Assembly: GCF_005116455.1 (NCBI RefSeq)
Contig: NZ_SWBP01000001.1
Coordinates: 744,001-808,000 of the forward strand
From: Pedobacter cryophilus
Lineage (GTDB): Bacteria; Bacteroidota; Bacteroidia; Sphingobacteriales; Sphingobacteriaceae
Direction: 5' to 3'
DNA length: 64,000 nucleotides
Shown in pieces: positions 6,832 through 44,145 of this stretch. The notes under the pieces were generated by a model. It searched no databases. It had not been told where the DNA came from and saw only the letters and a program-made list of their open reading frames with translations. Position numbers and translations under genes: made by a program. Numbering within the stretch: position 1 is the stretch's first letter; each line of letters starts with the position of its first letter.

Positions 6832-7824
6832 TTATAATCCTAAACTAGCAGAAATATCTAGCATTCTTTCTATTGGTTTTCTTGCTTTTTCTATTATTTC
6901 ACGTGGAACATCAACTTCTGGTAATTCATTTTTTAAGCATAAATAAAGCTTTTCTAAAGTATTCCTTTTCATGTGTGGACAATCATTACAAGCACATGAA
7001 TTATTTGGTGGAGCAGGAATAAAAGTTTTATCAGGACTTGATTTTTCCATTTGATGGATAATTCCTGATTCTGTAGCTACTATAAATGATTGAGCAGGAT
7101 TACTAATGGTATAGTTTAATAATCCGGTGGTAGAACCTATATAATCTGCCATTTCTAAAATAGCTTCCTCACACTCTGGATGCGCAATAAATTTAGCTTC
7201 AGGATGGCGTTGCTTTAATTTGGTTATTTTTTCCCTGGCAAAAATTTCATGAACCATACAAGCACCATTCCATAAAACCATGTCTCTACCAGTTTTCTTA
7301 ATCACGTAAGCGCCTAAGTTTTTATCTGGTCCAAATATGATCTTTTGATCTTTAGGTAAGCTATTTACAATTTGAACCGCATTACTTGATGTACAAACAA
7401 TATCACTCATTGCTTTTAGCTCAGCAGTACAGTTCACATAAGTAATCACCAAATGATCAGGATATTTCTCTTTAAACTTTTTAAATAAATGAGGCGGACA
7501 GCTATCAGATAAAGAGCATCCGGCTTTACTATCTGGTAATAATACTTTTTTATCAGGAGATAAAATTTTAGCAGTTTCGGCCATAAAATGCACACCCGCA
7601 AAAACAATCACTTTTGCATCAGTTTTAGCAGCTTGTTGAGATAAGCCTAAACTATCTCCAATATAATCTGCAACATCTTGTATATCAGATTCTTGATAAT
7701 AATGAGCAAGAATTACTGCATTTTTTTCCTTTTTAAGAATTTCTATTTCCTTAAATAAGTCTAAGGTGGGGTCAATGTATTCATCAACAAAACCTTTTAA
7801 ATTTATTTCTTCAGCTGTATTCAT
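6832..7824 (-). CDS. nadA: quinolinate synthase NadA
   Basis: A 330-residue cytoplasmic [4Fe-4S] enzyme that condenses iminoaspartate with dihydroxyacetone phosphate to quinolinate, the second step of de novo NAD synthesis. Diagnostic segments are [56 protein letters not shown], and the C-terminal cysteines in [13 protein letters not shown]. Its partner nadB lies divergently across a 448-base gap. A TACATTTG element (plus-strand 7836-7843) sits 12 bases ahead of the ATG and could be a promoter with a very short leader. A near-parS sequence lies inside the gene at 6895-6910. Confidence 0.97.
6895..6910 (-). promoter_or_regulatory. degenerate parS-like site inside nadA
   Basis: The minus strand reads TGTTCCACGTGAAATA. 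It fits the relaxed parS consensus TGTTNCACGTGAAACA at all but one position. It lies in the coding sequence for DVPREII and could simply reflect codon choice, so binding is uncertain, but two perfect sites occur 7.3 kb away. Confidence 0.4.
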
Positions 7825-14156: not shown

Positions 14157-14172
14157 TGTTTCACGTGAAACA
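14157..14172. promoter_or_regulatory. parS centromere site 1 (ParB binding)
   Basis: TGTTTCACGTGAAACA, a perfect 16-base match to the ParB/Spo0J parS palindrome. It lies in the short gap between mnmG and the CBU_0592-type gene, in the presumed mnmG leader or promoter. ParB bound here would nucleate the partition complex and might also affect mnmG transcription (inference). Confidence 0.93.
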
Positions 14173-14225
14173 TTTTGATTTTATAAAGATACAGCTTATA
14201 TTTTTCAATAAAATTTATCAGCCAA

Positions 14226-14486
14226 TCATGACTTCTTGTTGAATGTTTCACGTGAAACAGTTCCTTTAAAAAGCGAAAGAATAGCTGTAAAAGACCAAAT
14301 GATATTTAAAACAACAAAAGGGTAGAAGTCAACCATCCAAGAAGCATAGCAACTTATTAAACCGCCAATGGCGTTTAATAAGGCATAAAGCTTGCTTTTA
14401 TTATCAACGTAGCCAAAAATATTCAAGAAGAAAGCAATTAATAATATACCAACACCTAATGATGCCACCCAGTTTGCTACACTCAC
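14226..14486 (-). CDS. CBU_0592 family small membrane protein
   Basis: An 86-residue inner-membrane protein with three hydrophobic stretches: WVASLGVGILLIAFFLNIF, LYALLNAIGGLISCYASW and FVVLNIIWSFTAILSLF. This is the layout of the uncharacterised CBU_0592 family. Its start overlaps the ABC-F gene stop by four bases (ATGA), so translation may be coupled. The C-terminus TVSRETF is encoded by a perfect parS site, so the tail sequence may be dictated by ParB binding rather than by protein function. Confidence 0.8.
   Translation of the reverse strand: MSVANWVASLGVGILLIAFFLNIFGYVDNKSKLYALLNAIGGLISCYASWMVDFYPFVVLNIIWSFTAILSLFKGTVSRETFNKKS
14244..14259. promoter_or_regulatory. parS centromere site 2 (ParB binding), inside a gene
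   Basis: A second perfect TGTTTCACGTGAAACA, 87 bases from the first, located within the 3' coding end of the small membrane protein gene. Coding parS sites translating as VSRETF are well known near bacterial origins. Confidence 0.93.
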
Positions 14487-16342
14487 GCTAATTCAGTTAA
14501 AGTGATCCATTGCATAGATTTTTCATCTAACAAAGTGTTTGTTTCCTCTATTGTTTTAGAAAGAGCTATTAATTCTTCATGAGAGGCATTTGGATTATTT
14601 AGCTCGTTAGTCAGTTTTTCTACTGTGGCTTCTAAATCGGCAATCTCTTTTTCTAAGAGTTCAATTGCTCTTTGTTCTTTGTATGATAATTTGCTTTTTA
14701 CAGTTTCCTTTTTTACTTCTACAACAGGAGCAGGCTTCTCTTCTTTTGTTTTAGATTTTAATAATTCCTGTTCAAAGCGATAAGATGAATAGTTTCCATT
14801 GTAAATTCTAATGTCTCCATTGCCTTCTAAAACGAAAAGTTGCTCAGTAAGTTTATCCACCAAATACCTGTCGTGAGAAACTAAAAGTAATACACCAGGA
14901 TAGGTTTCTAAAAACTCCTCTAATACGTTTAAGGTATCTATATCTAAATCATTGGTAGGCTCATCTAAAATTAAAAAGTTAGGATTTTTGATCAACACCT
15001 TCATTAAATGAAGTCTCTTTTTTTCACCACCACTTAGTAAACTCACAAAACCATGTTGTTTTTTAGGAGGGAAAAGAAAGTGGGTGAGGAGTTGTGATGC
15101 TGATATGGTTTTACCGTCAGACATGGTGATGTATTCGGCAATGTTTTTTACCACATCAATCACTCTTTCACTTTCATCAAAACTTAAACCAGATTGATGG
15201 TAATAACCAAAAACTGTGGTTTCTCCAATGACTACGTTGCCAGCATCTGGTTTTAATTCATTGGTAATGATATTTAATAGCGTTGATTTTCCCGTTCCGT
15301 TTTTACCTGTTAAACCAATTTTGTCTCCCTTTTTAAAAACATAAGAGAAATTATCAATAATGTTTCTTTCCTGAAAGGTTTTAGAAATATGGTGTAATTC
15401 TAAAATTTGCTTGCCTTGTCGGCTTACCTTCACATCAAGCGTAACAGATTCTTTGATAAATTGCCCTTTTGTTTTGGTTTCCAAATCATAAAAAGAATCT
15501 ATCCTTGCTTTTGATTTGGTTCCCCTGGCTTGAGGCATTCTGCGCATCCACTCTAATTCTTTTTTGAGTAGGTTTTTGTTTTTAGCTAATACCGCACTGT
15601 TTATAGCGTCTTGCTCTGCTTTTTTCTCTAAATAATAAGCATATTTTCCTTTATAGGTATAAACAGTGCCGTTTTCTAATTCTATAATTTCATTGCAAAC
15701 ATTATCTAAAAAATAACGATCATGGGTAACCATTAAAATGGTTTTGCCTCCAGTAGTTAAAAAGCTTTCTAGCCATTCTATGGTGTCAATGTCTAAATGA
15801 TTGGTTGGCTCATCTATGACATAAACATCAGGTTCATCTATTAAAAGTTTTGCAAGACTTAAGCGTTTACGCTGACCACCAGATAAGGTGTCTATTTGTT
15901 GATCAAGATGATGAATATCTAAACGACCCAAAATAGTCTTAATTTGATGTTCATATTCCCAAGCTTCTAAATTGCTCAACTCTTCTGTTAAACGATTAAT
16001 CTCATCAACATCTGGATTTTCTTGTTCTAATAATTCCTCATATTCTCTTATGATTTGTTGCGAACGATTATCCATACTAAAAATGAAATCGCTGATGCTT
16101 TGCCCGGCTTCAAACTGAGGGTCTTGTTCTAAATAACCAAAACGAATGTCTTTTTCTTTGACAACCTTTCCTTCTGTTGGTTTTATTTTTTCTGCCAGAA
16201 GTTTTAAAAGGGTTGATTTTCCGGCACCATTTATTCCAACCAAAGCAACGCGTTGCCCTTGTTGTAGTCCGAAAGTTAAATTTCTAAAAAGCCAATGGTC
16301 ATTAAATGCATGGCTTAATTGTTCTGCTGATACGATACTCAC
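14483..16342 (-). CDS. ABC-F family ATP-binding cassette protein (Uup-like)
   Basis: A 619-residue soluble protein with two ABC ATPase domains and no membrane segments. Domain 1 has Walker A GINGAGKST (about 37-45), signature LSGGQRKRLSLA and Walker B VYVIDEPTNHLD. Domain 2 has GKNGTGKST, LSGGEKKRLHLM and FLILDEPTNDLD. The interdomain linker carries the charged ARGTKSKARIDSF segment, and residues about 545-605 form the C-terminal coiled coil typical of Uup. ABC-F proteins act on ribosomes or on branched DNA; which applies is not clear. The start overlaps the upstream gene by four bases. Confidence 0.93.
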   Translation of the reverse strand: MSIVSAEQLSHAFNDHWLFRNLTFGLQQGQRVALVGINGAGKSTLLKLLAEKIKPTEGKVVKEKDIRFGYLEQDPQFEAGQSISDFIFSMDNRSQQIIREYEELLEQENPDVDEINRLTEELSNLEAWEYEHQIKTILGRLDIHHLDQQIDTLSGGQRKRLSLAKLLIDEPDVYVIDEPTNHLDIDTIEWLESFLTTGGKTILMVTHDRYFLDNVCNEIIELENGTVYTYKGKYAYYLEKKAEQDAINSAVLAKNKNLLKKELEWMRRMPQARGTKSKARIDSFYDLETKTKGQFIKESVTLDVKVSRQGKQILELHHISKTFQERNIIDNFSYVFKKGDKIGLTGKNGTGKSTLLNIITNELKPDAGNVVIGETTVFGYYHQSGLSFDESERVIDVVKNIAEYITMSDGKTISASQLLTHFLFPPKKQHGFVSLLSGGEKKRLHLMKVLIKNPNFLILDEPTNDLDIDTLNVLEEFLETYPGVLLLVSHDRYLVDKLTEQLFVLEGNGDIRIYNGNYSSYRFEQELLKSKTKEEKPAPVVEVKKETVKSKLSYKEQRAIELLEKEIADLEATVEKLTNELNNPNASHEELIALSKTIEETNTLLDEKSMQWITLTELA

Positions 16343-28617: not shown

Positions 28618-30550
28618 ATTTATAGCTACGTTGTGTTAATTTAACATTTTCAAATACCAATTCTTCTTTATGAAGTTCTTCTGGTACGTTTTCTCCTTTG
28701 TATTGCCAAGCAGCTACGTATGCAAAATCATCATCGTTTCTTAAAGCTTCGCCTTCTGGGGTTTGGTATTCTGCCCTAAAGTGACCACCGCAAGATTCGT
28801 CTCTGTTTAAAGCATCATCTATCATCAGTTCACCTAATTCAATAAAATCTGCTACTCTACCTGCTTTTTCAAGAGATTGATTTACCTCTGAATTATCTCC
28901 TAAAACAATAGCGTTTTTCCAGAAATCTTTCTTCAAATCTTGAATCATTTGCTTGGCTTTAGCTAAACCTACAGCATCTCTAGACATTCCACAGTATTCC
29001 CACATAATTTTACCTAAATCTCTGTGGTATTCGTCAACTGTTTTGTTTCCTCTTAAGGATAAGAAAGTTTGAATACGTTCTTCTACTTCTGCCTTAGTTT
29101 TGGTAAAGGCAGGGTGGTTTGCATCAATTGGCGCTGGCCCTATATTGGCTAAATAATCTCCTACGGTGTAAGGAATTACAAAATAACCATCAGCTAAGCC
29201 TTGCATTAATGCAGATGCCCCTAATCTGTTTGCACCGTGATCAGAGAAGTTTGCTTCTCCTAAACAGTATAAACCAGGTACGCTAGTCATTAAATTATAA
29301 TCTACCCAAAGACCACCCATGGTATAATGCACCGCTGGATAAATTCTCATTGGTGATTCATAAGGGTTTTCATCAGTAATCTGACTGTACATATCAAACA
29401 AGTTGCCATATTTAGCTGCAACTGCTGGTTGTCCTAAACGCTTGATAGAATCAGCGAAATCTAAATAAACCGCTAAACCAGTTTTTCCAACACCTCTGCC
29501 GTCATCACAAACTTCTTTTGCGTTTCTTGAAGCCACATCTCTAGGTACTAAGTTTCCAAAAGATGGATATTTTCTTTCTAGGAAGTAATCTCTGTCGACC
29601 TCTTTAATATCTTTTGCTTTGATTTCTCCTTTACGAAGTTTTTCGGCGGTTTCTTTGCTTGCAGGAACCCAAACTCTTCCATCGTTTCTTAAAGATTCAG
29701 ACATCAGCGTAAGCTTAGATTGATGATCTCCAGATACAGGAATACAAGTTGGGTGAATTTGAGTATAACAAGGATTTGCCATTAAAGCGCCACGTTTGTG
29801 TGCTCTCCAGGCAGCAGTAACGTTAGAACCCATTGCATTGGTAGAAAGATAAAAAACATTACCATAACCACCTGTACACAACAATACAGCATGGCCAGCA
29901 TGACTTTCAACTTTCCCACTTACCAAATCTCTGGTTACAATTCCTTGTGCTTTTCCGTCAACTACTACCACATCTAACATTTCAGATCTGGTGTACATTT
30001 TTACTGTACCTAAGTTGATTTGACGGTTTAATGCAGAATAAGCTCCTAATAATAATTGTTGTCCGGTTTGGCCCCTCGCATAGAAAGTTCTGGAAACTTG
30101 AGCGCCTCCAAAAGAACGGTTATCTAACAAACCGCCATATTCACGAGCAAAAGGAACCCCCTGAGCAACACACTGATCTATAATATTAACCGATACTTCT
30201 GCTAAACGGTAAACGTTGGCTTCTCTGGCTCTGTAATCGCCACCTTTTATGGTATCGTAAAATAAACGGTAAACAGAGTCACCATCGTTTCTGTAATTTT
30301 TTGCTGCATTGATACCTCCTTGAGCCGCAATTGAATGCGCTCTTCTTGGACTATCCTGAAAACAAAATGCTTTTACGTTGTAACCCAACTCGGCAAGAGA
30401 TGCCGCAGCAGAAGCACCAGCCAGGCCAGTTCCTACTACTATTACATCATATTTACGTTTATTAGCCGGATTAACCAGTTTCAGATTGAATTTGTGTGTG
30501 TTCCATTTTTCAGCTAATGGGCCTGCTGGAATTTTTGCATCTAATTTCAT
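28616..30550 (-). CDS. sdhA: succinate dehydrogenase/fumarate reductase flavoprotein subunit
   Basis: A 644-residue FAD subunit interconverting succinate and fumarate. The FAD-binding [17 protein letters not shown], the [15 protein letters not shown] segment with the flavin-linking His, [41 protein letters not shown] and [17 protein letters not shown] are all present. Length and the separate single anchor gene (sdhC) fit the type B enzymes of Bacteroidota. It lies in the order sdhC-sdhA-sdhB. Confidence 0.97.
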
Positions 30551-30614
30551 CTTAATCTATTTTATAACTCAAACAGTAGTAGAAAATTATTGTTTTGAGC
30601 TTTGATTTCATTTT

Positions 30615-31382
30615 TTATTTAAAAAGAAAATATAATGGCATTGCTGCAAAACCAATTGGAATAATTACAGAGAAAACCCAAATGCCAACAAAGTTGATTA
30701 ATGGTTTGTACTTACTGTGATTCCATCCTAAAGTTTGGAATGCACTTTGGAAACCATGTACCAAGTGAAAAGATAATGCAACCATAGCTAATACGTACAA
30801 AGCTACAATCCACCATTGTTGGAAAGAAAATGCAACTGCTTTGTAAAGATCTTTTGATTTAATAATTTCTACACCGTTATCTACATAGCTTACGTAATCA
30901 GTGTATTCTGCTGATGAAATTTCTTTAGATACAGTTGTACCGGTATTTAAATCTGTTCTGTATTCTATAAATGGTGTATTTCCCCAATGGTACTCATACC
31001 AAAAGTTGCTCATGTGTACTACAATAAAAACAAAAAGGATGGTTCCTAGTATTCCCATGTTTCTTGATGACCAAATACTTCCTTCTTTTGGTTGTACAGC
31101 ATAAGCTACTGGGCGAGATTTTTTATTTTTTTGAGTGATGATGATTGCCCAAATGGTATGAACCAAAATAGAACTGTATAACAAATAAGAGACTACTTTA
31201 ATGGGTGTAAAGTGAGTCATAAAATGTGCGTATTGGTTAAATGCTAATCCATCATCGTTTTTAAATAGCTGAAAATTTCCGGTTAAGTGAATGATCAAGA
31301 AAGAACATAGAAACAAACCGGTTAAACACATAATTAATTTTCTCCCGAGTGATGAAGAAAATGTTTTGGAAAAATTACTCAT
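30615..31382 (-). CDS. sdhC: succinate dehydrogenase cytochrome b subunit (membrane anchor)
   Basis: A 255-residue integral membrane protein with five hydrophobic helices (LIMCLTGLFLCSFLIIHL, VVSYLLYSSILVHTIWAIIIT, GILGTILFVFIVVHM, WWIVALYVLAMVALSFHLVHG and FVGIWVFSVIIPIGFAAMPLY). Conserved histidines in these helices fit the two haem b groups of the type B anchor. The start MSNFSKTFSSSLGRK was chosen; the longer frame would run through a TACTTTTG promoter element at 31413-31420. First gene of sdhCAB. Confidence 0.95.
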   Translation of the reverse strand: MSNFSKTFSSSLGRKLIMCLTGLFLCSFLIIHLTGNFQLFKNDDGLAFNQYAHFMTHFTPIKVVSYLLYSSILVHTIWAIIITQKNKKSRPVAYAVQPKEGSIWSSRNMGILGTILFVFIVVHMSNFWYEYHWGNTPFIEYRTDLNTGTTVSKEISSAEYTDYVSYVDNGVEIIKSKDLYKAVAFSFQQWWIVALYVLAMVALSFHLVHGFQSAFQTLGWNHSKYKPLINFVGIWVFSVIIPIGFAAMPLYFLFK

Positions 31383-31412
31383 TCTTTGGTATTTAAAGGT
31401 TTTTTTGAACGC

Positions 31413-31420
31413 CAAAAGTA
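31413..31420 (-). promoter_or_regulatory. candidate -7 element of the sdhCAB promoter
   Basis: On the minus strand TACTTTTG fits TAnnTTTG and lies 30 bases before the sdhC ATG, giving a leader of roughly 25 bases. No clear TTTG is present at the -33 position. Confidence 0.5.
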
Positions 31421-31542
31421 TTCATTATATGATAAAAAAAGACTAATAGATTACAGGAAACACAAATTTATTTTTATTTAGAAACGTTTTAAATAAAAAG
31501 GCAAACAAAGAATAGGTGATTTTAGACATCGTTAAAAATAAA

Positions 31543-31573
31543 AAAGTCCTGATGGATTAGCCATCAGGACTTT
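31543..31573 (-). terminator. intrinsic terminator of the degP-like gene
   Basis: A perfect 13-base stem (31543-31555 with 31561-31573) with a 5-base loop, 22 bases after the protease stop codon, followed on the minus strand by a T-rich tract. Confidence 0.92.
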
Positions 31574-31595
31574 AAAAATATATGTTGATTTGATA

Positions 31596-33128
31596 TTATT
31601 TGATTGGGAAAGTCACTCTAAAACGACTTCCATCAGGAACGATACCTTGCAAAGAAACCATTTTAGGATCTTGCTTTAGAGCCGCTACCACCTGATCATT
31701 GTTGTTTACTCCTTTACCATTGATACTAGTAATGATGGTTCCTTTTGGCATATCATACATATCAAAAACTTTACCAGCTACCACTTCCGTAACAATTACA
31801 CCAGTGCTAACACCATATTTCTTTTTAGTAGCATCTGTTAAAGGAGCAAATTTTGCACCTAAAGAACCTACCACTTCAGAAACTGATGCGCTATTGTTTG
31901 AAGCTAATTTATTGCCTTCATCACCTTTTAAAGTTACGTTATACGTTTTTAAACTACCCTCTCTTAATACTGTCAATTGCACTTTATCACCTGGGCGCAT
32001 GGTTCCAATTTTTTCTTGTAGGTTAGATGAGTTTGAAATATCAGCGCCATTTAGTTTTTTAATGATATCACCTTTTTTAATTCCGGCAGAAGCTGCGGCA
32101 CCACCTTCTAAAGTAGAGTTAACATATAAACCATCAATTTCTTCGGTACCAAAATCCTTAGCATTATCAGCATTTAACTCTTGAAAAGTAATGCCAATAT
32201 AACCGCGTTTTACTTCGCCATATTTTAAAAAGTCGTCCATTACTTTTTTAGCCAGGTTTACCGGAATCGCAAAACCATAACCTTCATAAGTGCCAGATTG
32301 AGAGGCAATAGCAGAATTAATTCCTATCAACTCACCTTTAGTATTCACTAAAGCACCGCCACTATTTCCTCTGTTAATTACTGCATCAGTCTGAATAAAA
32401 GATTCAATAGAAGTATCGGTTGGTGGATTTTCTGGATCATAATTATTTCTATTATCAGAAGTTAAAATACCAATTTTACGAGCTTTTGCGCTCACAATAC
32501 CTGCGGTAACGGTAGATTCTAAGGTTAAAGGATAGCCTACTGCTAAAACCCATTCTCCTACCCGTACCAAATCAGAATTTCCTAATTTTACTATCGGAAG
32601 ATTAGTCGCTGTAATTTTAATTAGCGCTAAATCGGTGTTTTTATCTCTTCCAATTACTTTAGCTTGTAATACTCTTTTATCGGTTAAAATCACTTCAATT
32701 TTCTCGGCATTTTCTACCACGTGGTTATTGGTCATAATGTAACCATCATCAGTAACAATTACGCCAGAACCTTTTCCCATTGGCGCAGGAGAGTTTTGAT
32801 TTGGTGTTGATGGTCTTCTTCTGCCAAAGAAATCTTCAAACATTTCGCCAAAAGGATCACCACCTTGATTGCCTGCCGATCTACTGTAGGTGGTTCTTAC
32901 GTGAACTACTCCAGGCGAAACTATAGCCGCAGCTTGTGTAAAATCTAATGCGCCTGCAGATGAAGTGATTTCTGAAGGATTATTGGCGAAGTAAACTTTT
33001 TGTCTTTCATCAAGACTTAAGCCCGTTAAAGACTTTTGTTCTAATAATTTGTAAGCGCCAATAGCAACAGCCCCACCTACAAAAGCTGTAATTAGTGTAA
33101 TTCCTATTTTTCTCATGTTACCTTTCAT
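31596..33128 (-). CDS. Do/DegP (HtrA) family serine endoprotease
   Basis: A 510-residue envelope protease and chaperone. An N-terminal membrane anchor or signal (MRKIGITLITAFVGGAVAIGAY) is followed by a trypsin-like domain with the triad in MTNNHVVENAEK (His), KNTDLALIKI (Asp) and NRGNSGGALVNTKG (Ser). Two PDZ domains follow (about residues 305-390 with GYIGITFQELNAD, and 420-505). The insert GGDPFGEMFEDFFGRRRPS is the LA-loop-like segment. Start at 33128 (MKGNMRK) was preferred; a TATTTTTG element on the minus strand at 33159-33166 argues against the longer frame. Confidence 0.95.
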   Translation of the reverse strand: MKGNMRKIGITLITAFVGGAVAIGAYKLLEQKSLTGLSLDERQKVYFANNPSEITSSAGALDFTQAAAIVSPGVVHVRTTYSRSAGNQGGDPFGEMFEDFFGRRRPSTPNQNSPAPMGKGSGVIVTDDGYIMTNNHVVENAEKIEVILTDKRVLQAKVIGRDKNTDLALIKITATNLPIVKLGNSDLVRVGEWVLAVGYPLTLESTVTAGIVSAKARKIGILTSDNRNNYDPENPPTDTSIESFIQTDAVINRGNSGGALVNTKGELIGINSAIASQSGTYEGYGFAIPVNLAKKVMDDFLKYGEVKRGYIGITFQELNADNAKDFGTEEIDGLYVNSTLEGGAAASAGIKKGDIIKKLNGADISNSSNLQEKIGTMRPGDKVQLTVLREGSLKTYNVTLKGDEGNKLASNNSASVSEVVGSLGAKFAPLTDATKKKYGVSTGVIVTEVVAGKVFDMYDMPKGTIITSINGKGVNNNDQVVAALKQDPKMVSLQGIVPDGSRFRVTFPIK

Positions 33129-33158
33129 GTTGTTATCATTAAGCTTTAAAACTGTTTT

Positions 33159-33166
33159 CAAAAATA
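33159..33166 (-). promoter_or_regulatory. candidate -7 element of the degP-like gene
   Basis: TATTTTTG on the minus strand matches TAnnTTTG, 31 bases before the chosen ATG. A TTG (plus-strand CAA 33188-33190) lies 21 bases further upstream, slightly more than the ideal 19. Confidence 0.5.
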
Positions 33167-33339
33167 ATACCAATAAGACGTTTCATACAACAGTATGTTA
33201 TTTAATTAGGTGTTAAAAAATGTTAAATACCGAAGATTAAAAACAGCTTTTTCTACAACTGAATTAAATATAACAATGATTTGGAGCTAAGATTGTTTTA
33301 AGGTTAATTTTTACTGATTTTTGCATATAAATTACAAGC

Positions 33340-34125
33340 ATGAACGTATCTTTTTTTAAATATCAGGGAGCAGGAAACGACTTTATTATGGTAGATAACC
33401 GTGATTTAGCTTTTAATCATCATCAACCAGCGCTTTTGGCTCGTTTATGCGACCGTAGATTTGGAGTGGGCGGCGATGGAATTATGTTTTTAGAATATAC
33501 CGAAGGCTTTGATTTTAAAATGGTTTATTATAATGCAGATGGGCAGCCTAGCAGTATGTGCGGTAATGGCGGAAGATGCATTGTTGCCTTTGCAAAATAT
33601 TTAAATGTGATTAATAGCGAGACTAATTTTTTGGCAGTTGATGGCGCTCATTATGCCAAAATTTCAGATTCTGGTGATTGGGTAAGCTTACAAATGATTG
33701 ATGTGGAGACCGTTAATAAAGATGGCGAAGCTTATGTACTTAACACCGGCTCGCCGCATTATGTGAAATTTGATTTGGCTGTTGCCGATAAAAACGTATT
33801 TGAAGAAGGCAGAGCGATTAGATATAATGAAACCTATAATGCCGAAGGTATTAACATTAATTTTGTGGAAGATAAAGAGGATCATCTTTTTGTACGTACT
33901 TATGAACGTGGAGTAGAAGACGAAACTTATGCTTGCGGCACCGGAGTTACCGCGGTTGCTTTAGCACATGCAATAGAAAAAAACCAAATTGGTAAAATTG
34001 AAACGCCCATTAAAGTTTTAGGTGGTGAGCTAAATATAAAGTTTGAGTATGACGGAAAAATATTTACTAATATTTTCTTAGAAGGACCAGCAAAATTAGT
34101 TTTTGAAGGCGATATTGATATTTAA
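33340..34125 (+). CDS. dapF: diaminopimelate epimerase DapF
   Basis: A 261-residue enzyme converting LL- to meso-diaminopimelate for peptidoglycan and lysine synthesis. The two catalytic cysteines are in PSSMCGNGGRC and YACGTGVTAVALA; the start FFKYQGAGNDFIMVDN and CDRRFGVGGDGIMFLE are typical, and the C-terminal LEGPAKLVFEGDI is complete. It is divergent from the HtrA gene and convergent with the SAM synthetase, 21 bases away. Confidence 0.97.
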   Translation: MNVSFFKYQGAGNDFIMVDNRDLAFNHHQPALLARLCDRRFGVGGDGIMFLEYTEGFDFKMVYYNADGQPSSMCGNGGRCIVAFAKYLNVINSETNFLAVDGAHYAKISDSGDWVSLQMIDVETVNKDGEAYVLNTGSPHYVKFDLAVADKNVFEEGRAIRYNETYNAEGININFVEDKEDHLFVRTYERGVEDETYACGTGVTAVALAHAIEKNQIGKIETPIKVLGGELNIKFEYDGKIFTNIFLEGPAKLVFEGDIDI

Positions 34126-34146
34126 TTTATTGAAAAATAAACCTAT

Positions 34147-35328
34147 TTAGACTTTAAACACCTCAAATGGAGTTTCAGCAGAAATTAGTTTTTCCCAAAG
34201 CTTGGGTGTTTCGGCAAGTTTTTCTTTTGCTAACTTTTCTATTTGGGTGTTATTTGCACTTTGATTTTGAAGTTTAATATGAAGGAATTGCGGCTGTGTG
34301 ATAGGCTTTCCTATTTGCGAAACAATGTAAACCTGCGCTTCATCAGCAAAATGACTTTCAACAATAGATTTGCTTAAATCAAAAGCAAAGTGGTTATAAA
34401 TTTTACCAATATGGCTGATTGGATTTTTACCCGCAACGGCTTCTAAACTCATAGGGCGGTAAGGGGTAATTAAACCATTAATTCGGTTTCCTCTGCCTAC
34501 TTCACCATCATCGCCGGCCTCGGCACTGGTGCCAGATACGGTAAGGTATATACTTTCTGTTTGGTAATTATCTGCAGTGTTAATTTCAATAAACTGGGGT
34601 TCTATTTTAAAAGATGTGGAGATGAAGTTTTTTATCGTTGTAATTTTGTGTTGATAATCATCAATATTAGCAATAAAACGATCTATAATAGCAATAGCAA
34701 TGGTGTAATAAATGCCGGTTAGAGCGTTTACGCCCATCACTTTAATGTCTTCGCCAATGAATGGAAATTTTTGTTTAACAGATTTGTTGTTGAGTAAAAG
34801 CTCAATATCTAAAACAGTTTTTTGTAGCAAAGAATAAGGATAGTATGCCACCCCAAAAGAAGAATCATTTGCTAAAGGGATTTGGCCTTCTTTAAAGCGT
34901 TTAAAAAGGTCAACCAAATCATTACTTCCTTTTCTAATTTTAGTAATCATGTTGATGTTTTTATCTGCATCAAGAAAACGGATATTTTTTTTGAGCCAGT
35001 TTTTTGCAGCTTCTTCTGCTATTTCATTTACAGGGATTTTCTTTCCTTTTACTTCGTTGGAGGCTCTTCCGGCTAAAATAATTTCTATGGGAGCCAAAAT
35101 TTTACCGCCCTTATAAGCAGTTTGCGAACTTCCGCCAATTAATAAAGCTTTATCTACATTGTGATGTAAAATGCTGCCAAATTGGGCAATATAATATTTG
35201 CTTAAGGCAACTGAAACCTCTTCGGCAATGCAATCGCAAATGGTATCTGGATGTCCAATTCCTTTGCGCTCTACCATTTCAAAGGAAGAGATTTGCGCTT
35301 GTGACTGTATGAGTATGTTGCTTGCCAT
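34147..35328 (-). CDS. archaeal-type S-adenosylmethionine synthetase
   Basis: A 393-residue methionine adenosyltransferase of the archaeal family, not the usual bacterial MetK. Diagnostic parts are VERKGIGHPDTICDCIAEEV, SILHHNVDKALLIGG, IEIILAGRAS, IPLANDSSFGVAYYP, DIKVMGVNALTGIY, VSGTSAEAGDDGEVGRGNRI and PYRPMSLEAVAGKNPISHIG. It makes S-adenosylmethionine from methionine and ATP. Bacteria with this form usually also have metK elsewhere, and the gene is often thought to be horizontally acquired. No methyltransferase or cobalamin gene stands beside it. A dispersed element borders its upstream side. Confidence 0.92.
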   Translation of the reverse strand: MASNILIQSQAQISSFEMVERKGIGHPDTICDCIAEEVSVALSKYYIAQFGSILHHNVDKALLIGGSSQTAYKGGKILAPIEIILAGRASNEVKGKKIPVNEIAEEAAKNWLKKNIRFLDADKNINMITKIRKGSNDLVDLFKRFKEGQIPLANDSSFGVAYYPYSLLQKTVLDIELLLNNKSVKQKFPFIGEDIKVMGVNALTGIYYTIAIAIIDRFIANIDDYQHKITTIKNFISTSFKIEPQFIEINTADNYQTESIYLTVSGTSAEAGDDGEVGRGNRINGLITPYRPMSLEAVAGKNPISHIGKIYNHFAFDLSKSIVESHFADEAQVYIVSQIGKPITQPQFLHIKLQNQSANNTQIEKLAKEKLAETPKLWEKLISAETPFEVFKV

Positions 35329-35646
35329 TTTTTGCTTTTATTAAAAAACGGAGGTAAGATTTATATTGGTGATGAATATAAATATAGCGAAAAGGCTTGA
35401 TTTTGAGGTTGATTTTTGTTGCCTGAAATTTATTTTAAGATTTTAGGATGACGCAATTGACGGGTTGTGAAATAGAAGCAAAGGCTTAAGTACAATAAAC
35501 CGGGTAATAGCGATATCCCCGCCTGATACGGACGGGCAGGTTTTTTTGCGCTTTTGGCCTTTGCTTGGGAAGAAAAAAGATTTAGCGGTTAGCCGGACTA
35601 GCGGAACTAATGGAAAACAGCCTTTGTTTTTCTAAATAAAAAAATA
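35329..35646. other. 318-bp intergenic region upstream of the SAM synthetase
   Basis: No gene. The first 125 bases are AT-rich and must contain the SAM synthetase promoter; the rest is dispersed element copy B. No SAM riboswitch-like structure was recognised. Confidence 0.5.
35468..35640 (+). repeat. dispersed intergenic element, copy B
   Basis: Begins GAAGCAAAGGCTTAAGTAC and AATAAACCGGGTAATAGCGA, then carries a CCCGCCTGATACGGACGGG hairpin (35519-35537), TTTTTTTGCG, GAAAAAAGATTTAGCGG, AGCCGGACTAGC, and ends GCCTTTGTTTTTCTAAATAA. The GCAAAGGC start and GCCTTTG end are inverted, as in a compact element. It lies downstream of the TonB-receptor gene on the minus strand. Confidence 0.8.
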
Positions 35647-38517
35647 TTAATTCATAAAACTACCATCACCTCGTCTAATTATGTTTCTGTTATTTCCGCC
35701 CACTGCGCCAGTCCATTTTTGAAGGTTCATACTTAAGTTAAGCATTACGTAACGGCTGTTTGGGTTGGTTAAAGTTTCTGTAAAACCTAAACCGTTTTGG
35801 GTTCTGTTGATGAAATTGTTTTGTTTCAATAAATCATAAGCTCTGAGTTGTAAAGTGCCTTTGTTTTTGAAAACACGTACTTGCAACATGGTGTTAATGA
35901 TGAATGGATTGTTGGTTACGTTATTGCCAATACCGCTTACATAATTTTTGCTTAAAGCGTAGCCAAACTGATATTTTTTAGCAAAATAGATGTTTCCGTC
36001 TAAGCTTATAGCCCATATTTTTTGGGTAACATCTTGATTTCTTGCTAAAGAATAATTGGTTTTATTGATGTCAAAAGAAACATAAGGGTTAATTTCTAAC
36101 CAAGGCTTAGGCGTCATTCTTGGTCCAAAGTTTTCTTTAAAACCCCAAGTTGTTGAGGTGTTAATGATGCCATTACTCATAGAAACTCTGTTAGAGTTTA
36201 CCATGTTTCCAGAAAATGAAAGGCTATATTTTCTATCATTCAATTGTTTTGAGATGGAGTAATCTGCATTATGGCTTTTATTTCCGTTTAAGTTAACATA
36301 TTGAGTCTCGTTTTTTAAGCTACCGTAAGCATCATTAACCTGCAAAATATTACTGGTCACCTGGTTTTCTGTAAAGGAAGTGCTTAGTCTTAAATCGTAA
36401 TTTAATTTAAGGTTTGCTATGTAATTGCTGTATTGGCCATTTATGCTATGTGTAAAAGCTACTTTAAGATTTGGATTACCCACAATTGCATTTTGTGGGT
36501 TAGAAACGTCTCTAACCGGTTGAATTTGGTTAAACTCGGGCTCATTAGCTCTACCGTTGTAGTTTAAGGAGATTCTGTGTGTACTAGATAATTTAACTTG
36601 TAAACGAGCAATTGGAATTAATTTAAAGTATTGCTGATCAGTACTGGTTCCTAAACTTGCTTTTGTACCAACTAAAGAGGTAGAAACGGCTGTTAAGCCT
36701 AGTGAATAACTAAATAAACTGTTGTTATTACCATATCTGTAGTTAAAAGAATTACGGTATTGGGTAAAAGCGTATTCAAAAATATTGCTTAAGCTATCAA
36801 TTTGGATTTGGTTTCCAATATTATCTATATTACTGGTTAAACGACTGTTATCATAAGCTCTGTACTCAATATTTGAGTTAAATTCTAAGCGAGATAGTTT
36901 GCCTAAAGGTTCAGAATAAGTTAAGCTACCGCGATAATTGTTTTGTAAATTATTGGTCCCTATAAAACGATGAACCACCGAATCTCTTACAATATTTTGT
37001 TGCCCATCTCTATAAATGATGTTGTTGTCTTGCTCTGCACCGCTATCATTTTGTTGCTGCCCAACGGTGGCTTCTAAAGAAAAAGAACGAGAAGGTTTTT
37101 TGAAAATATGTTGATAAGCAATGGTACCGCCAATGTTTGGACGCGTATTGCTGTTATTATTTATGTTAAGTTGATCTTGATTGATTAAACCTGTTTGAAA
37201 ATTTGATGAGCTACTGTTTCCGCTGCTGTTGGTAAAGCTAAGGTTTGGCGTAAATTGTAAATAGTTAGCGCTATCTATTGCGTATTCTAATTCAAAACTA
37301 ATGGTATGTGCTTTATTTAAAGATGCGTTTAATGCATCTCGGTTAGAAAATGTTTCTCCTCTATCACTTATGTTTAATGAATTACTAATGGTTTGCGTAT
37401 TGTTGTTGGTATATCTGTAAGAGTAATTGGCCAAAAAATCTACTTTGGTGCCAAATTTATCACGATAGGTGAATGCTGGCGCTGTACGGGTATTTGTTCC
37501 TCCGGTTGCGTTTCCGCCTCCGCCACCACCAAATCCTTCGCCACTTCTTCCACCACGGTTAGCGGCACCGCCTAAACGCCCAACGCTGGCGTTTCCGCCG
37601 GCAATTCCGTTTGGTGTTTGTTGAAGGGTAGTGTTTACGGTAATGGTTTGGTTTTTATTAATTCTGGTAAGGTTGGCGCTCCCTTCTAATTGGTCCATGG
37701 TGCCGGCACCGGCATTTAACCTGGCCATCATCCCAACAGATTTATCTGCTCGGGTGGTAATGTTTAATACTTTTGTAGGGTCGCCTTCTTTTACACCTGT
37801 TCTTGCAGCGGTATTTCCATAATCATCTACCACCTGAATTTTTTCTACAATTTCGGCAGGTAAATTTTGTATTGCGGCAGCTACATCACCACCATAAATA
37901 TCTTTACCGTTTAAACGGGCTTTTGCAATAGCGGTTCCATTTACAGATACCGAACCATCATTTCCTACTTCAAAGCCTTCCATTTTTTGCAGCAATTCAT
38001 CAACCGTTGCGCCTTGTCTTACCACATAATCACTGGCTCTAAATTCAACGGTATCAGTTTTGTAAACTATAGATGGCGTACCATTTACAATTACTTCATT
38101 TAAAATATTATTATCGGCTTTAAGGGTAATAGGATCTAGCGTAAGTCTGGCTGTGGCATCATTATATTTTCCGGCTATTACTTTGGTGGTATAACCAATA
38201 GAACTCACTTTTAAGCTAAACACCCAAGCTTTTACGCCTTTAAAAATAAAAACGCCATCTTCATTTGTACTGGTTCTTAAAGTATCAGCAACAGAGGTTA
38301 GGGTAATAGTTGCACCAATTAAAGTTTGATCTGTTGAATCTTTTACAATCCCACTTACTTGCCTTACCGGAATTGGAGGCGGAGTAGTACCACCAGCTGT
38401 TCGGGGTGTGTTTTGAGCAAAAATTTGGCTTGCGCCGAGGATTAATAACAGCATCAAAAGCCATTTTTTTAACAACAAAACAGATAAATAATTTAGCTTT
38501 TGTACTGATTTTTTCAT
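35647..38517 (-). CDS. TonB-dependent receptor-type outer membrane beta-barrel protein
   Basis: A 956-residue outer-membrane protein. After a signal peptide ending near GASQIFAQ comes a carboxypeptidase-regulatory-like domain (VSGIVKDSTDQTLIGATITL, about 53-135), a plug with IVYKTDTVEFRASDYVVRQG and VDELLQKMEGFEV (about 155-260), then a long beta-barrel region. A glycine-rich insert (about 318-345, GEGFGGGGGG) separates plug and barrel. It matches the outer-membrane beta-barrel family of Bacteroidota rather than SusC: there is no SusD partner and no typical SusC plug. The gene just upstream encodes a glycine-rich exported protein 49 bases away, probably in the same operon. Substrate unknown. 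Confidence 0.88.
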   Translation of the reverse strand: MKKSVQKLNYLSVLLLKKWLLMLLLILGASQIFAQNTPRTAGGTTPPPIPVRQVSGIVKDSTDQTLIGATITLTSVADTLRTSTNEDGVFIFKGVKAWVFSLKVSSIGYTTKVIAGKYNDATARLTLDPITLKADNNILNEVIVNGTPSIVYKTDTVEFRASDYVVRQGATVDELLQKMEGFEVGNDGSVSVNGTAIAKARLNGKDIYGGDVAAAIQNLPAEIVEKIQVVDDYGNTAARTGVKEGDPTKVLNITTRADKSVGMMARLNAGAGTMDQLEGSANLTRINKNQTITVNTTLQQTPNGIAGGNASVGRLGGAANRGGRSGEGFGGGGGGNATGGTNTRTAPAFTYRDKFGTKVDFLANYSYRYTNNNTQTISNSLNISDRGETFSNRDALNASLNKAHTISFELEYAIDSANYLQFTPNLSFTNSSGNSSSSNFQTGLINQDQLNINNNSNTRPNIGGTIAYQHIFKKPSRSFSLEATVGQQQNDSGAEQDNNIIYRDGQQNIVRDSVVHRFIGTNNLQNNYRGSLTYSEPLGKLSRLEFNSNIEYRAYDNSRLTSNIDNIGNQIQIDSLSNIFEYAFTQYRNSFNYRYGNNNSLFSYSLGLTAVSTSLVGTKASLGTSTDQQYFKLIPIARLQVKLSSTHRISLNYNGRANEPEFNQIQPVRDVSNPQNAIVGNPNLKVAFTHSINGQYSNYIANLKLNYDLRLSTSFTENQVTSNILQVNDAYGSLKNETQYVNLNGNKSHNADYSISKQLNDRKYSLSFSGNMVNSNRVSMSNGIINTSTTWGFKENFGPRMTPKPWLEINPYVSFDINKTNYSLARNQDVTQKIWAISLDGNIYFAKKYQFGYALSKNYVSGIGNNVTNNPFIINTMLQVRVFKNKGTLQLRAYDLLKQNNFINRTQNGLGFTETLTNPNSRYVMLNLSMNLQKWTGAVGGNNRNIIRRGDGSFMN

Positions 38518-38566
38518 GATTTTGATAATGCTGAAATGGTATTGCTTTTGATGACTTTGAAAAGGA

Positions 38567-39466
38567 CTATTTACTGTTTGTTAAAATGTATTTACCCCAA
38601 AAATCTGTTGGACTTAATAATTCCTGGAAGTTACCGCCACCAAAGCCGCCGCCACCTTCTGTTCTTACAACGGTTACCACGTTACCGCCACCACCACCAG
38701 CTCCTCCGGGTCTTCCACCACCAAAATTTCCGCCGCCAAAATTGCCCATTTGTAATCCGTTAACTTTAATGTTGTAAGAAAATTCTTTAGGCTTATCTGC
38801 AGACATTTCTAATAAACTTAATGGAATAGCAATTTCATAAGAAAATAAACCAGCCTCATTAATAGTAGCTACGGCTTTAATCCCGTATTCATTATAGATA
38901 GAAACTAAACTGTCTGTAATATCTTTAAAACCAAAAATTTTGATCTCTTTTGCCGCTATTAATTGGGTTTTTGCCATTGCAATTTGCATAGAGTCTCTTT
39001 GTGCCGGCGTTCTTTGTTGAAACTGACCTAAACTACCAGGTCCGCCCTGAATTCTTACCGTTCCGCCACCGCCGCCTTGGCCACCCCCCTGTCTTCTCAC
39101 CCTATTAATTACAGGGTAAGTTAACATATAACCCTCTTTATCTTTTTTCTTTCCGGTTGGGTTTACCGTTAAAGTAATACCGCCCAGCATAATTTTATTG
39201 TTATTAGTTAAATCTTTAGATTGTATGGCCAAGTATAAATTCTTACTGTCATTTGCTATGGTGTAAGAAAGATTGGTGCTTTTATTTACCGCTTTTAACG
39301 GTGCTTCCCACTCGGTAATTTTACCATCAACTTTTACGGTTGGGGCCCATAAGCTTTCTTCTTGAATGTCGCTTGCTTTTTGTGCGAAAGCGTTGATGTT
39401 GGCTATAAAAATTAGCGAAAAGGTACTTAACCCTAATTTGATGGTATTTAAGAAGTTTGAGTTCAT
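38567..39466 (-). CDS. exported glycine-rich protein with CBM9-like domain
   Basis: A 299-residue protein with a signal peptide (cleavage near NINAFAQ). Residues about 40-125 resemble a carbohydrate-binding family 9-like or DOMON beta-sandwich: WAPTVKVDGKITEWEAPLKA and YTIANDSKNLYLAIQSKD. Two glycine-rich tracts follow, near 128-145 (GGGQGGGGGT) and 245-285 (GNFGGGNFGGGRPGG). The closing FWGKYILTNSK is plain. In this lineage such domains are found next to outer-membrane receptors. The adjacent receptor also has a glycine-rich insert, suggesting they work together (inference). Confidence 0.7.
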   Translation of the reverse strand: MNSNFLNTIKLGLSTFSLIFIANINAFAQKASDIQEESLWAPTVKVDGKITEWEAPLKAVNKSTNLSYTIANDSKNLYLAIQSKDLTNNNKIMLGGITLTVNPTGKKKDKEGYMLTYPVINRVRRQGGGQGGGGGTVRIQGGPGSLGQFQQRTPAQRDSMQIAMAKTQLIAAKEIKIFGFKDITDSLVSIYNEYGIKAVATINEAGLFSYEIAIPLSLLEMSADKPKEFSYNIKVNGLQMGNFGGGNFGGGRPGGAGGGGGNVVTVVRTEGGGGFGGGNFQELLSPTDFWGKYILTNSK

Positions 39467-39584
39467 TTGATGTTAAATTTAATGATGGTACAATATCTAT
39501 GTTATGAATTTATGAAAAGATTAAATGCTACCTGATGCGTTTAAAAAGCTACCAAGTACATGAATTTGTAGAACAAATTTTAGA

Positions 39585-40718
39585 TTAATGTTTTTGAATT
39601 TTGTTTTTGAGGTTCATCATCTTTTCCTCAAGCGCCAATCCATTTCCTTTATCTAACATATTTGGGATTTCTTTTAAGCTATCGTTAATTTTAGTTAGAG
39701 CGGTTTCGTAATCAGACTTTAAAAAGTTTATTGCTGCTTCTGTTGCATAAATTAGCGCTTTAGAAACAAAAGCATTTGCTTTAAACTGATTCCAGTATTT
39801 TAAAGCCGAATCTAAATCTGCTTTGGCATAAGCGTAAAAAAAAGCGGCGTCTAACCAAACGGTATTTCTCATTCCGGCGGGTATTTCCTCTATTTCCTCC
39901 ACATAATTTAATAAATGATTTTCGGCTTTTTCTAATTGGCCTAAATCAAAGGTGGTTTGGTGGAGTAAACCATGCATATAAACACCATAAGATAAATTCA
40001 ATTTTTTAGCCAGCGTTTTAGCCTCTTCCAGCTCATCAATAGCTATTAATTTTGGAGGGATGCCACCAGTACTTTGGGCAATAATTTTTAAAAGTAGAAC
40101 TTCAAAATGGGCCGCTTCACCACCTTTTAATATTCTTAAAATACGAGCACCGTCAGAAGAAAATCCACCACTGTGAATGGGAATAATGGTGATTAAAAAA
40201 ATTAAAAAAGAAAGAATGGCTAACATTAAAAAGATAAAACCCAAAGTTTGTAGGGCTGCCATGTTTGTGGTGTTTAAGCTGCTCAATAATAAAAATAAGA
40301 AGTAAGCTAAGGCTGATAATAATAAACTGGCAATAGGGCCACCCGCCGCATATATTGCAAATCTTTTATTTAAATTATTGGTGCCAATGGGCAAGCAAAC
40401 CACTAAGCCGCCAGCAGTGTTCACATTTTTGTTCCACTTAAATTTCCACTTATTTTGCTCTTTATTCCATAAAAAAGGACCAACCACAAACATTCTAAAA
40501 TCAAAATTCACCTTTACACCGGCAAAAGCATGCCCTGCTTCATGAAAAGCAATCACTATTAAAAATGCAGGGACAAATAGGAATACCACAAATAATAAAG
40601 CGGTTTTTGGGAGGTTGATTCCGGCTAAGCCAAATTTTCCAACTAAATAACCTACGCCAGCTCCAATCACTATAGCGATGAAGAAGCCTAATATTTTAAG
40701 TGTTTTTTTGTTTTTCAT
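39585..40718 (-). CDS. M50 family metallopeptidase (site-2 protease-like)
   Basis: A 377-residue integral membrane zinc protease. The metal motif HEAGHAFAG (HExxH) lies in helix 2 (about residues 59-67), and the second motif SSDGARILRIL supplies the third ligand Asp. Five or so hydrophobic segments make up residues 1-205. The C-terminal 170 residues are soluble and helical with TPR-like character (FDLGQLEKAENHLLNYVEE, DLDSALKYWNQFKA). No PDZ domain is visible. The protein substrate is unknown; site-2 proteases usually cleave membrane-bound regulators. Confidence 0.88.
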   Translation of the reverse strand: MKNKKTLKILGFFIAIVIGAGVGYLVGKFGLAGINLPKTALLFVVFLFVPAFLIVIAFHEAGHAFAGVKVNFDFRMFVVGPFLWNKEQNKWKFKWNKNVNTAGGLVVCLPIGTNNLNKRFAIYAAGGPIASLLLSALAYFLFLLLSSLNTTNMAALQTLGFIFLMLAILSFLIFLITIIPIHSGGFSSDGARILRILKGGEAAHFEVLLLKIIAQSTGGIPPKLIAIDELEEAKTLAKKLNLSYGVYMHGLLHQTTFDLGQLEKAENHLLNYVEEIEEIPAGMRNTVWLDAAFFYAYAKADLDSALKYWNQFKANAFVSKALIYATEAAINFLKSDYETALTKINDSLKEIPNMLDKGNGLALEEKMMNLKNKIQKH

Positions 40719-40811
40719 TTGATCGCCGTTAAGGCTTTAATTTTCATTTGACGCCAAGGGAGGGCAATTATTACAGTGTCAGCATAAATTACAAGGAAAG
40801 GAAACGCAATT

Positions 40812-42104
40812 TTAAAATACAGAAAAGAGCAATACAGCTAAAGCTGTTGTAAAAATAACACCATAACCTATATACAGGTACTTTCTTAAAGATTTGCTGC
40901 CCGCCCAAATGCCAATACCCATTTTAACCAAGGTATTAGAAATAGTAGCAATAAGTACGGCATTGCTGGCCAAAGAAAAATCTAGCTTAAGCCCGGCTAA
41001 TTTAGAAACCGTAATGGTAACGGCATCAATATCAGAAAAGCCGCCAATTGCACTAGAAATCATTAAGCCTTTTTCGCCCATGTTTTCATTAGCATAACTT
41101 ACCACCAGTAAAATAACGATGTAAATGATACCAAATACCAAAGCGCCTTGTAGGTCTAGTGGTTTGCCTTGGCGAATAGTGGCATCTATTATTTTGTTGC
41201 TTCGAGGTTTAAAATAAAAGAAGAGCGTGATACCTATTCCTGCTAAAAAAACCAAAAATATGGTAAAATATATTTGATTGAAAAATGCTTTATTAAAGAT
41301 GAAAGTCCAAACCAAAACCCGGATGATCATGATAGATGATGCGGCCAATATTGCTATGGCGCAATCATGCGAAAGGGCTTCATTTTCTTTGCTTTTTTTG
41401 GCAAAAACCCAGGTAACGGCAGTACTAGAAATCAATCCGCCGATTATACCGCTGAATAAAATTCCTTTTCTGGCGCCTAAAAATTTCATCAGAATATAAC
41501 CAACAAAACCTAAACCCGATGTTAGGATAATCACCCAACCAATTTCATGGGGATTAATGATGTTGTAAGGACCAAAAGTTTTATTGGGTAAAAAGGGAAA
41601 AACCAAAAGGGCAATCACCACAAAACGAATAAAATCATACAATTCTTCTGCGGTAATTTCTCCAATAATAGATTGAAGCCTAACCTTTGCAGAAAGAATG
41701 ACGACCACCAATACGGTAATCATTAAACTGATTTCTAGTATTCCCAGGAAAGTTAAAGTACCCAAAAGAAAGCAAATGACGACAGAAAACTCGGTAGTTA
41801 CCCCTACATCTCCTTTAGTTGCTGTTATAAAGTAAGAGATACCGGTTAACAAAACAACAGATAATAAAATGGCAATATAAACCCAAGGCGTAAATAATTG
41901 GTAAGCTAAGCCGCCAATAAAGCCTAATAGCACCACAAATATGAAAGTTCTTATTCCGGCAAAGCTTTTAGCTTTTTCTTTAATTGCGGCGTATTCGCGT
42001 TCAAGCCCAATAATAAAACCTATTCCAATGGCCACAAAAGTCCTGATAATGAAGTCAGCTTGAGTGATTTGAAAGGTTTCTGTATTGATGACGAAAGTAT
42101 CCAT
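40812..42104 (-). CDS. MgtC/SapB family membrane protein with DUF4010 domain
   Basis: A 430-residue inner-membrane protein of about 12 helices. The N-terminal part is MgtC-like: RTFVAIGIGFIIGLEREYAA, KAKSFAGIRTFIFVVLLGFIGG and GVTTEFSVVICFLLGTLTFLG. The C-terminal part matches DUF4010, with GARKGILFSGIIGGLISSTAVTW and SSAIGGFSDIDAVTITVSKLA split over about 340-390. The role is probably ion- or magnesium-related transport or regulation, but unproven. It stands alone, with the M50 protease 93 bases downstream. Confidence 0.88.
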   Translation of the reverse strand: MDTFVINTETFQITQADFIIRTFVAIGIGFIIGLEREYAAIKEKAKSFAGIRTFIFVVLLGFIGGLAYQLFTPWVYIAILLSVVLLTGISYFITATKGDVGVTTEFSVVICFLLGTLTFLGILEISLMITVLVVVILSAKVRLQSIIGEITAEELYDFIRFVVIALLVFPFLPNKTFGPYNIINPHEIGWVIILTSGLGFVGYILMKFLGARKGILFSGIIGGLISSTAVTWVFAKKSKENEALSHDCAIAILAASSIMIIRVLVWTFIFNKAFFNQIYFTIFLVFLAGIGITLFFYFKPRSNKIIDATIRQGKPLDLQGALVFGIIYIVILLVVSYANENMGEKGLMISSAIGGFSDIDAVTITVSKLAGLKLDFSLASNAVLIATISNTLVKMGIGIWAGSKSLRKYLYIGYGVIFTTALAVLLFSVF

Positions 42105-42240
42105 TGTGGCCTTAGAGTTTTATCGCTAAAGTTAAGCGATGTTTTTTCTAAGATACGTAAAAATTGAAAGAGGATATTAGGTTGTTTAAAGGGGGTGAAT
42201 AATGTTTTTGGGATGAGGGATTTGTATCTTTTTTTACATA

Positions 42241-42258
42241 GATAAGCCGAGGCTTATC
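42241..42258. repeat. small perfect hairpin in the MgtC/GIY-YIG spacer
   Basis: GATAAGCC and GGCTTATC flank a two-base loop. No T run follows on either strand as a terminator would need, so it looks like a single palindromic repeat (REP-like). Confidence 0.5.
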
Positions 42259-42332
42259 CCTACATCAATTTCAATGATTAATCTCATTTAAAATAATCAA
42301 AAATAAACAAAATACTAAAGGCTTATAATTGA

Positions 42333-43196: not shown

Positions 43197-43290
43197 TTTA
43201 GAATTTTCCTGTTTTTATTCGGTTTTGTAGCAATGATTTCACGTTTTTGGTAGATGAAATTTTCTTTCACAATGTAGGGTTTTTTCGGAA

Positions 43291-43453
43291 AATAGTAGTA
43301 AAGGCCTAAGTAAAATAAGCGGGATTGCAACGGCATCCTTTTTTGCCTTTCCACTTTGCAAATTGTGACGAAAATGTAGGGGGCAAAAAAGATACAGTAA
43401 AAAGCCCGACGGGTTTAATTTTAAATGATGGAATTTGCCTTTCTAAAAACACC
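43291..43453 (+). repeat. dispersed intergenic element, copy C
   Basis: The clearest member: AGTAAAGGCCTAAGTAAAAT, AAGCGGGATTGCAACGGCAT, CCTTTTTTGCC, a 40-base loop region, GGGGGCAAAAAAGATACAG, AAAAGCCCGACGGG, and the end TTTGCCTTTCTAAAAACACC. The TTTTTTGCC and GGCAAAAAA blocks are inverted repeats, and the outer AAAGGC and GCCTTT also pair. Confidence 0.85.
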
Positions 43454-43476
43454 ATAAAATTGTATTTCATAAAGGG

Positions 43477-43507
43477 TTTGAAGGATAGCGATTAATAACT
43501 ATTTTTG
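43477..43507 (+). promoter_or_regulatory. efp promoter, exact Bacteroidota consensus
   Basis: TTTG at 43477-43480, a 19-base spacer, then TATTTTTG at 43500-43507 match the primary-sigma consensus TTTG-N19-TAnnTTTG. Transcription would begin near 43512, about 16 bases before the efp ATG. Confidence 0.85.
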
Positions 43508-43528
43508 CAGACCAAAAAAACACACATT

Positions 43529-44089: not shown

Positions 44090-44110
44090 GAGTTTTTAAG
44101 ATAAACAAGA

Positions 44111-44145
44111 AAAGGGCTTCATTTTTATAAATGAAGCCCTTTTTT
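44111..44145 (+). terminator. intrinsic terminator of efp
   Basis: A perfect 14-base stem (44111-44124 with 44129-44142), four-base loop and T run to 44145, 21 bases after the efp stop. Confidence 0.95.

Follow-up and report, generated by a model that had tools for sequence, protein, structure and literature searches.

Two perfect 16-base palindromes lying ahead of mnmG in the draft genome of Pedobacter cryophilus are, with a probability of about 0.93, predicted to be the parS sites at which a ParABS system acts on the chromosome. The preliminary description of this DNA had taken them for a ParABS centromere, and that reading is sustained by the exact match to the consensus, the uniqueness of the pair in the genome, the presence of cognate ParA and ParB, the nearness to the GC-skew minimum and the conservation of position among relatives. 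In kind, the sites are well supported as canonical parS; their placement at mnmG, apart from parAB, seems to be a trait that has persisted for long in the phylum. No description of this anchoring was found in the literature that we searched, which lacked the parS survey of Livny et al. 2007.

The window, by which we mean the whole 64,000-base stretch of DNA analysed (G000:C1:744001-808000, where G000 is the genome under study and C1 one of its contigs), belongs to a draft assembly of 3,991,797 bases in 16 contigs. A whole-genome search for the exact 16-mer TGTTTCACGTGAAACA returned two copies in 3.99 Mb, both in the pair beside mnmG (Table 1), and each is an exact copy of the 16-bp palindrome TGTTNCACGTGNAACA that marks chromosomal parS; from base composition (window GC 34.6%), about 0.0015 exact copies would be expected. 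The two copies are spaced 87 bp start to start and, as had been noted before, span 103 bp, although they do not flank the mnmG start as was then stated: mnmG is read from the minus strand with its start codon at 14145, and therefore the copies at 14157 and 14244 are both upstream of it. When up to two mismatches were allowed, a single extra site was found genome-wide, 7 kb from the pair; the reversed-pattern control gave two matches in the whole genome at the same tolerance, so this third site is consistent with chance.

Table 1 Features in the window (positions in window coordinates), with the loci of other genomes that carry sites away from mnmG.
Feature	Position	Strand	Remarks
parS1 (proximal), TGTTTCACGTGAAACA	14157..14172	no strand	-27 to -12 of the mnmG ATG; kept in relatives' mnmG leaders
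parS2 (distal), same 16-mer TGTTTCACGTGAAACA	14244..14259	no strand	overlaps the final codons of the gene for the small membrane protein
Degenerate parS-like site, TATTTCACGTGGAACA	6895..6910	+	inside a nadA-like gene (named by eye); 2 mismatches; may be chance
Rough oriC interval	30000..52000	no strand	cumulative GC-skew minimum and switch from mostly minus- to mostly plus-strand genes
mnmG (gidA), 620 aa	12283..14145	-	Pfam GIDA; NCBIfam TIGR00136 above cut-off
CBU_0592-family membrane protein, 86 aa	14226..14486	-	NF047864 (score 26.8 bits, cut-off 25)
ABC-F ATPase gene	14483..16342	-	upstream neighbour in 25/30 family loci
Family f5 loci L275-L279			genomes G357, G373, G353, G263, G236; sites at thrC, not mnmG
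murQ-mfd loci L281-L285			family f17 genomes G327, G233, G212; also G374, G229

The earlier suggestion that the pair lies close to oriC is upheld by cumulative GC skew, computed over the window and five neighbouring 20-kb pieces of C1. This noisy and partly sampled curve has its minimum at C1 774-796 kb, 16-38 kb from parS, with skew in the sampled parts of C1 mostly negative leftward and mostly positive rightward, with exceptions. Nearness to the origin was judged from the skew and the gene-strand switch alone, which estimate oriC without pinpointing it; DnaA-box-like 9-mers in the window, with 18 matches against 20 expected, showed neither enrichment nor clustering. The relative G315, assembled as one contig, agrees: its 20 sampled stretches shift from mostly negative to mostly positive skew between 1.1 and 1.4 Mb (apart from a positive value at 1.25 Mb and a slightly negative value at 1.5 Mb), with parS at 1.376 Mb, parB at 0.207 Mb and dnaA at 0.5 kb, a gap of 1.37 Mb between parS and dnaA. 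In our genome dnaA lies at C1 6.5 kb (G000:C1:6532), about 750 kb from parS, and does not seem to be an origin marker, because about 770 kb separate it from the skew minimum. Origins away from dnaA, with parS clusters near the origin, have been described for gut bacteria including two Bacteroidetes, where the authors took as ori whichever skew shift was nearer to the parS cluster, and reported agreeing read coverage (PMC10197239).

The genome contains one parA-parB operon, on the 442-kb contig C11, and it is therefore not adjacent to mnmG or parS. Since parS sits inside C1 (1,234,066 bases) at 758 kb, parAB is at least 476 kb away, taking C11 to be part of the same chromosome. The only ParB_N protein found in the genome carries a GERR motif and, aligned to PDB chain 7bnk_A (entry title 'ParB family protein', which we take to be M. 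xanthus ParB), reads KNRSTVTNYLRLLKLP...SMGHAR. These motifs, through which residue numbers were transferred from the alignment, place Arg and Gly at the positions equivalent to R173/G201, as in a ParB of the parS-binding type; with C11 taken as chromosomal, a cognate ParA and ParB are thus present. Arg and Gly at these two positions are absolutely conserved in ParB and replaced in Noc, according to the consulted portion of PMC7383237, which also describes G170 and S172 as conserved; our ParB has S and N where their equivalents would be.

Conservation of the sites was examined in the organism's own family, with counts given raw, shared ancestry being ignored. Exact TGTTNCACGTGNAACA occurs in 140 of 201 genomes searched, and all 30 relatives' loci returned with the exact-site search have it in the mnmG leader. 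The 61 genomes lacking an exact site include 50 with a usable mnmG leader, every one of which has a near-match there (either the 14-mer core GTTNCACGTGNAAC or a 16-mer with no more than one mismatch) that differs from the exact site mostly in the outer bases; of the remaining 11, six gave no match to mnmG, three a match truncated at the start and two nothing but a weak paralogue. Altogether, parS-like palindromes were seen in the mnmG leader of 84/84 family genomes examined, our own included: two sites in 70, one in 11 and three in 3. The preliminary description had counted a lack of further parS sites clustered near this locus as grounds for refutation, and the genome-wide search gave no further exact one; yet one to three leader sites are the family norm, and that criterion is for this reason too strict. 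In 78 of the 84 leaders the proximal 16-mer begins 18-36 bp ahead of the mnmG start. Its flanks have diverged to 0.1-0.8 bits per base across 53 aligned family sites, these low flank values alone being informative since the core values are fixed by site selection. Separately, in two genomes of about 2 Mb (G010 and G033, loci L184 and L185) the cores of the leader sites are now CACATG and CACGGG, a drift that may reflect altered ParB specificity in a small-genome lineage.

The distal copy offers a further view of what is conserved. It is read in frame within the small membrane protein gene as V-S-R-E-T, followed by F, and the earlier remark that it sets the VSRETF C-terminus is borne out by relatives, whose peptides track the variable bases of the palindrome. 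The small membrane protein gene was compared at 21 loci from 20 genomes, L019 and L058 coming from the same one: the distal site is within the gene in 18, in one common frame that may simply be inherited, and two variable bases give VSRET, VSRGT, VPRET or VPRGT; in two more (L175, L202) the site overlaps the stop, the TGA of the palindrome serving as stop codon after a C-terminus ...RST, and one locus has no core site inside the gene. The family model NF047864 spans residues 4-73 of the 86, parS2 lying beyond the matched part, and Pfam gave no family for this protein at E 0.001, with weak sub-cut-off ones only at E 5. Because the site is kept while the peptide varies and the family model ends at residue 73, the constraint on the distal copy looks to act on DNA and not on the peptide.

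Other signals around the pair were few. A tRNA search of the window found none, a terminator scan around the sites gave no terminator-like site, and a sigma-70 scan there gave 3 promoter-like sites against 2.2 in shuffles. The Bacteroidota-type -7 element is TAnnTTTG, which occurs in 9/55 family mnmG leaders against about 3 in single-base shuffles; as the window has only the one-off TATCTTTA, we make no claim of a promoter there. Elsewhere in the window, the minus strand encodes a RhuM-family protein (PF13310; 17942-18931) amid apparently mostly housekeeping genes, and a 911-aa protein (2147-4882) with many near-identical TSIAFNGSVPYVVY-like repeats, recognised by eye.

The arrangement extends well beyond the family. 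In a phylum sample of 198 genomes, all matched by the mnmG query, we inspected 70 loci, namely the 30 that the query returned as its closest sequences, plus 40 hand-picked for family spread; 6 of the 70 belong to our own family. A site at an mnmG end, recognised by the core or one-mismatch rule used for the family and lying no more than 300 bp ahead of the gene or between -60 and +600 bp relative to the stop codon, was found in 28/34 loci from other families of the same class and in 28/30 loci of other classes, 16 of these 30 having it solely downstream of mnmG; 8/64 sampled loci outside the family have no mnmG site. The best 80 named loci, taken with up to 10 kb each side of mnmG, were scanned as well: 58 of them show a core site no farther than 300 bp from either end of mnmG, 111/134 core sites fall in that zone, and the reversed-pattern control had no match in the 1.55 Mb of these loci. 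Positive loci include Pedobacter, Mucilaginibacter, Algoriphagus, Chitinophaga, Chryseobacterium and Cellulophaga. Runella, Larkinella, Dyadobacter, Fibrivirga and all five Saprospiraceae records are among the negative ones; of the 22 loci of the best 80 that lack a core site in this zone, two have less than 300 bp of leader sequence and one has sites at -878 and -846. In Terrimonas ferruginea (L083, L247), eight (at most two mismatches) or nine (core) parS-like sites were observed within 1 kb upstream of mnmG.

Distances could be read directly in 21 one-contig genomes, 8 of them with rounded lengths. Exact sites are present in 14, 30 in total, all within 20 kb of mnmG and 23 within 4 kb; five of the other seven have core-only sites within 2 kb of mnmG, and the remaining two, G232 and G386, have no 14-mer core anywhere, G232 having a one-mismatch leader site at -72. 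The shortest distance between parB and mnmG is 299.8 kb, in G016, and it is greater in the other 20 genomes; dnaA is at most 100 kb from mnmG in 7/21 and more than 100 kb away in 14/21.

Some lineages place their sites at other genes. In family f5, at least one site lies in or just past thrC, beside thrB, in 5/5 sampled genomes (Pfam being run on one), and in two of these, G357 and G263, another site follows 2.4-2.5 kb past thrC. Family f17 has a pair between a murQ-like gene, so named from its Pfam SIS/GKRP match, and mfd in 3/3 genomes; G374 and G229 likewise have a site or pair beside the murQ-like gene and mfd, at most 20 kb from mnmG, and one more elsewhere. The sole site of G361 is 28 kb from mnmG, where neither of these neighbours was found, and G289 has no core site in its whole genome. 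Judged from these sequences, thrC is a second conserved anchor and murQ-mfd a third, so that mnmG is the usual anchor of parS and not an obligatory one. The exceptions at thrC and murQ-mfd therefore make chromosomal position look like the conserved thing, and they weaken control of mnmG as the reason for the sites.

Such control is nonetheless conceivable, in that ParB loaded at parS might also repress or tune mnmG, and perhaps the membrane protein gene, coupling wobble-uridine modification to segregation. The tight spacing of the proximal 16-mer ahead of the mnmG start in most family leaders speaks for it, and P. aeruginosa provides a precedent, since the excerpted text of PMC5521831 reports that ParB-parS3/parS4 repress adjacent genes there; the likeness is a parS beside a gene start, with repression seen in P. 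aeruginosa and sequence alone available here. We consider this dual use unlikely, however, because the downstream-only sites of other classes and the sites at other genes in f5, f17, G374 and G229 indicate that the leader position is dispensable across the phylum. The broader proposal that parS at mnmG ends both marks the origin and meters mnmG, tying translation capacity to segregation across Bacteroidota, is more doubtful still; if it were true, a different gene would have come to be metered in the lineages that moved parS to thrC or murQ-mfd.

That the palindromes act as RNA, through a leader hairpin, an attenuator, a terminator or a long stem between the copies, is very improbable. The mnmG-sense strand can fold into an 18-bp stem that pairs one copy with the other (z = -4.5) and into a single hairpin (z = -2.2), but perfect palindromes in two copies fold so by necessity. 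Moreover, 32/117 exact sites (one genome counted twice) and 53/160 family leader sites are asymmetric at positions 5 and 12, where C..A or T..G breaks or weakens the base pair while the site is retained, so the stem is not kept by base pairing across relatives; nor do single-copy leaders, sites after mnmG, sites inside thrC or the lack of a terminator-like site around the palindromes fit such a role. We likewise give very little weight to another palindrome-binding regulator, be it Noc or some transcription factor acting locally. The sites of ParB resemble those of Noc, and the best NCBIfam E-value of our ParB is to the Noc model; yet it scores 231.9 against a cut-off of 315 (TIGR04285), has R and G in place of the Noc Q173/R201 equivalents, and is the only ParB_N protein found in the genome. 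The Noc site, furthermore, has a CCCGGG core, differing from TGTTTCACGTGAAACA. Chance or a decaying relic, for which the simplicity of the motif is the single argument, can be set aside almost entirely: two copies stand against the expected 0.0015, and 84/84 family leaders keep the site while its flanks have diverged, in line with the earlier view that the pair is not accidental.

As chromosomal parS, the pair resembles the sites of ParB/Spo0J in B. subtilis, C. crescentus and P. aeruginosa, which share the same 16-bp palindrome, in few clustered copies, near the estimated origin and with a cognate ParA/ParB. It differs in lying at least 476 kb from parAB and about 750 kb from dnaA, and in being kept at mnmG ends across relatives. 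Many bacteria have an origin cluster mnmG-rsmG-parA-parB (gidAB-parAB), which is alike in having mnmG near parS and the origin region; here, by contrast, our own ParA/ParB queries, which matched 22/22 parB loci as a positive control, had no match in 230 mnmG loci, whose lengths ranged from about 2 to 22 kb, and parB is at least 299.8 kb off in the 21 one-contig genomes. Gut Bacteroidetes are a further comparison, again with clusters of the parS consensus near an origin that need not be at dnaA; the available part of that account makes no mention of mnmG and reports no known condensin in its two Bacteroidetes, whereas our genome has ScpB (PMC10197239).

By analogy with the known biology of the ParABS family, ParB from the distant parAB operon would load at the pair as a CTP-dependent clamp and spread across the adjoining DNA, and ParA would then move ParB, so that the freshly replicated origin region would segregate first. 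ParB probably also aids Smc-ScpAB loading at the pair, which is plausible because ScpB is encoded in the genome. ParB is known to nucleate at parS, spread, activate ParA and recruit Smc, as summarised in the cited portion of PMC7333895. A reason to keep parS near oriC may be drawn from Caulobacter, in which an additional parS cluster is harmful to a severe degree unless it lies within a zone of about 500 kb (PMC5815017). The mnmG anchoring is best read as a position near oriC kept over a long time, with parAB and often dnaA elsewhere.

The centromere would thus have stayed fixed at one gene through much of the phylum while parAB, and often dnaA, lie far off. The families with parS at thrC and murQ-mfd form natural controls for whether parS is placed by its distance from oriC or by the adjoining gene, and mnmG-parS could offer an easy way to recognise the origin region of Bacteroidota genomes in draft form, for which dnaA can be a misleading guide.
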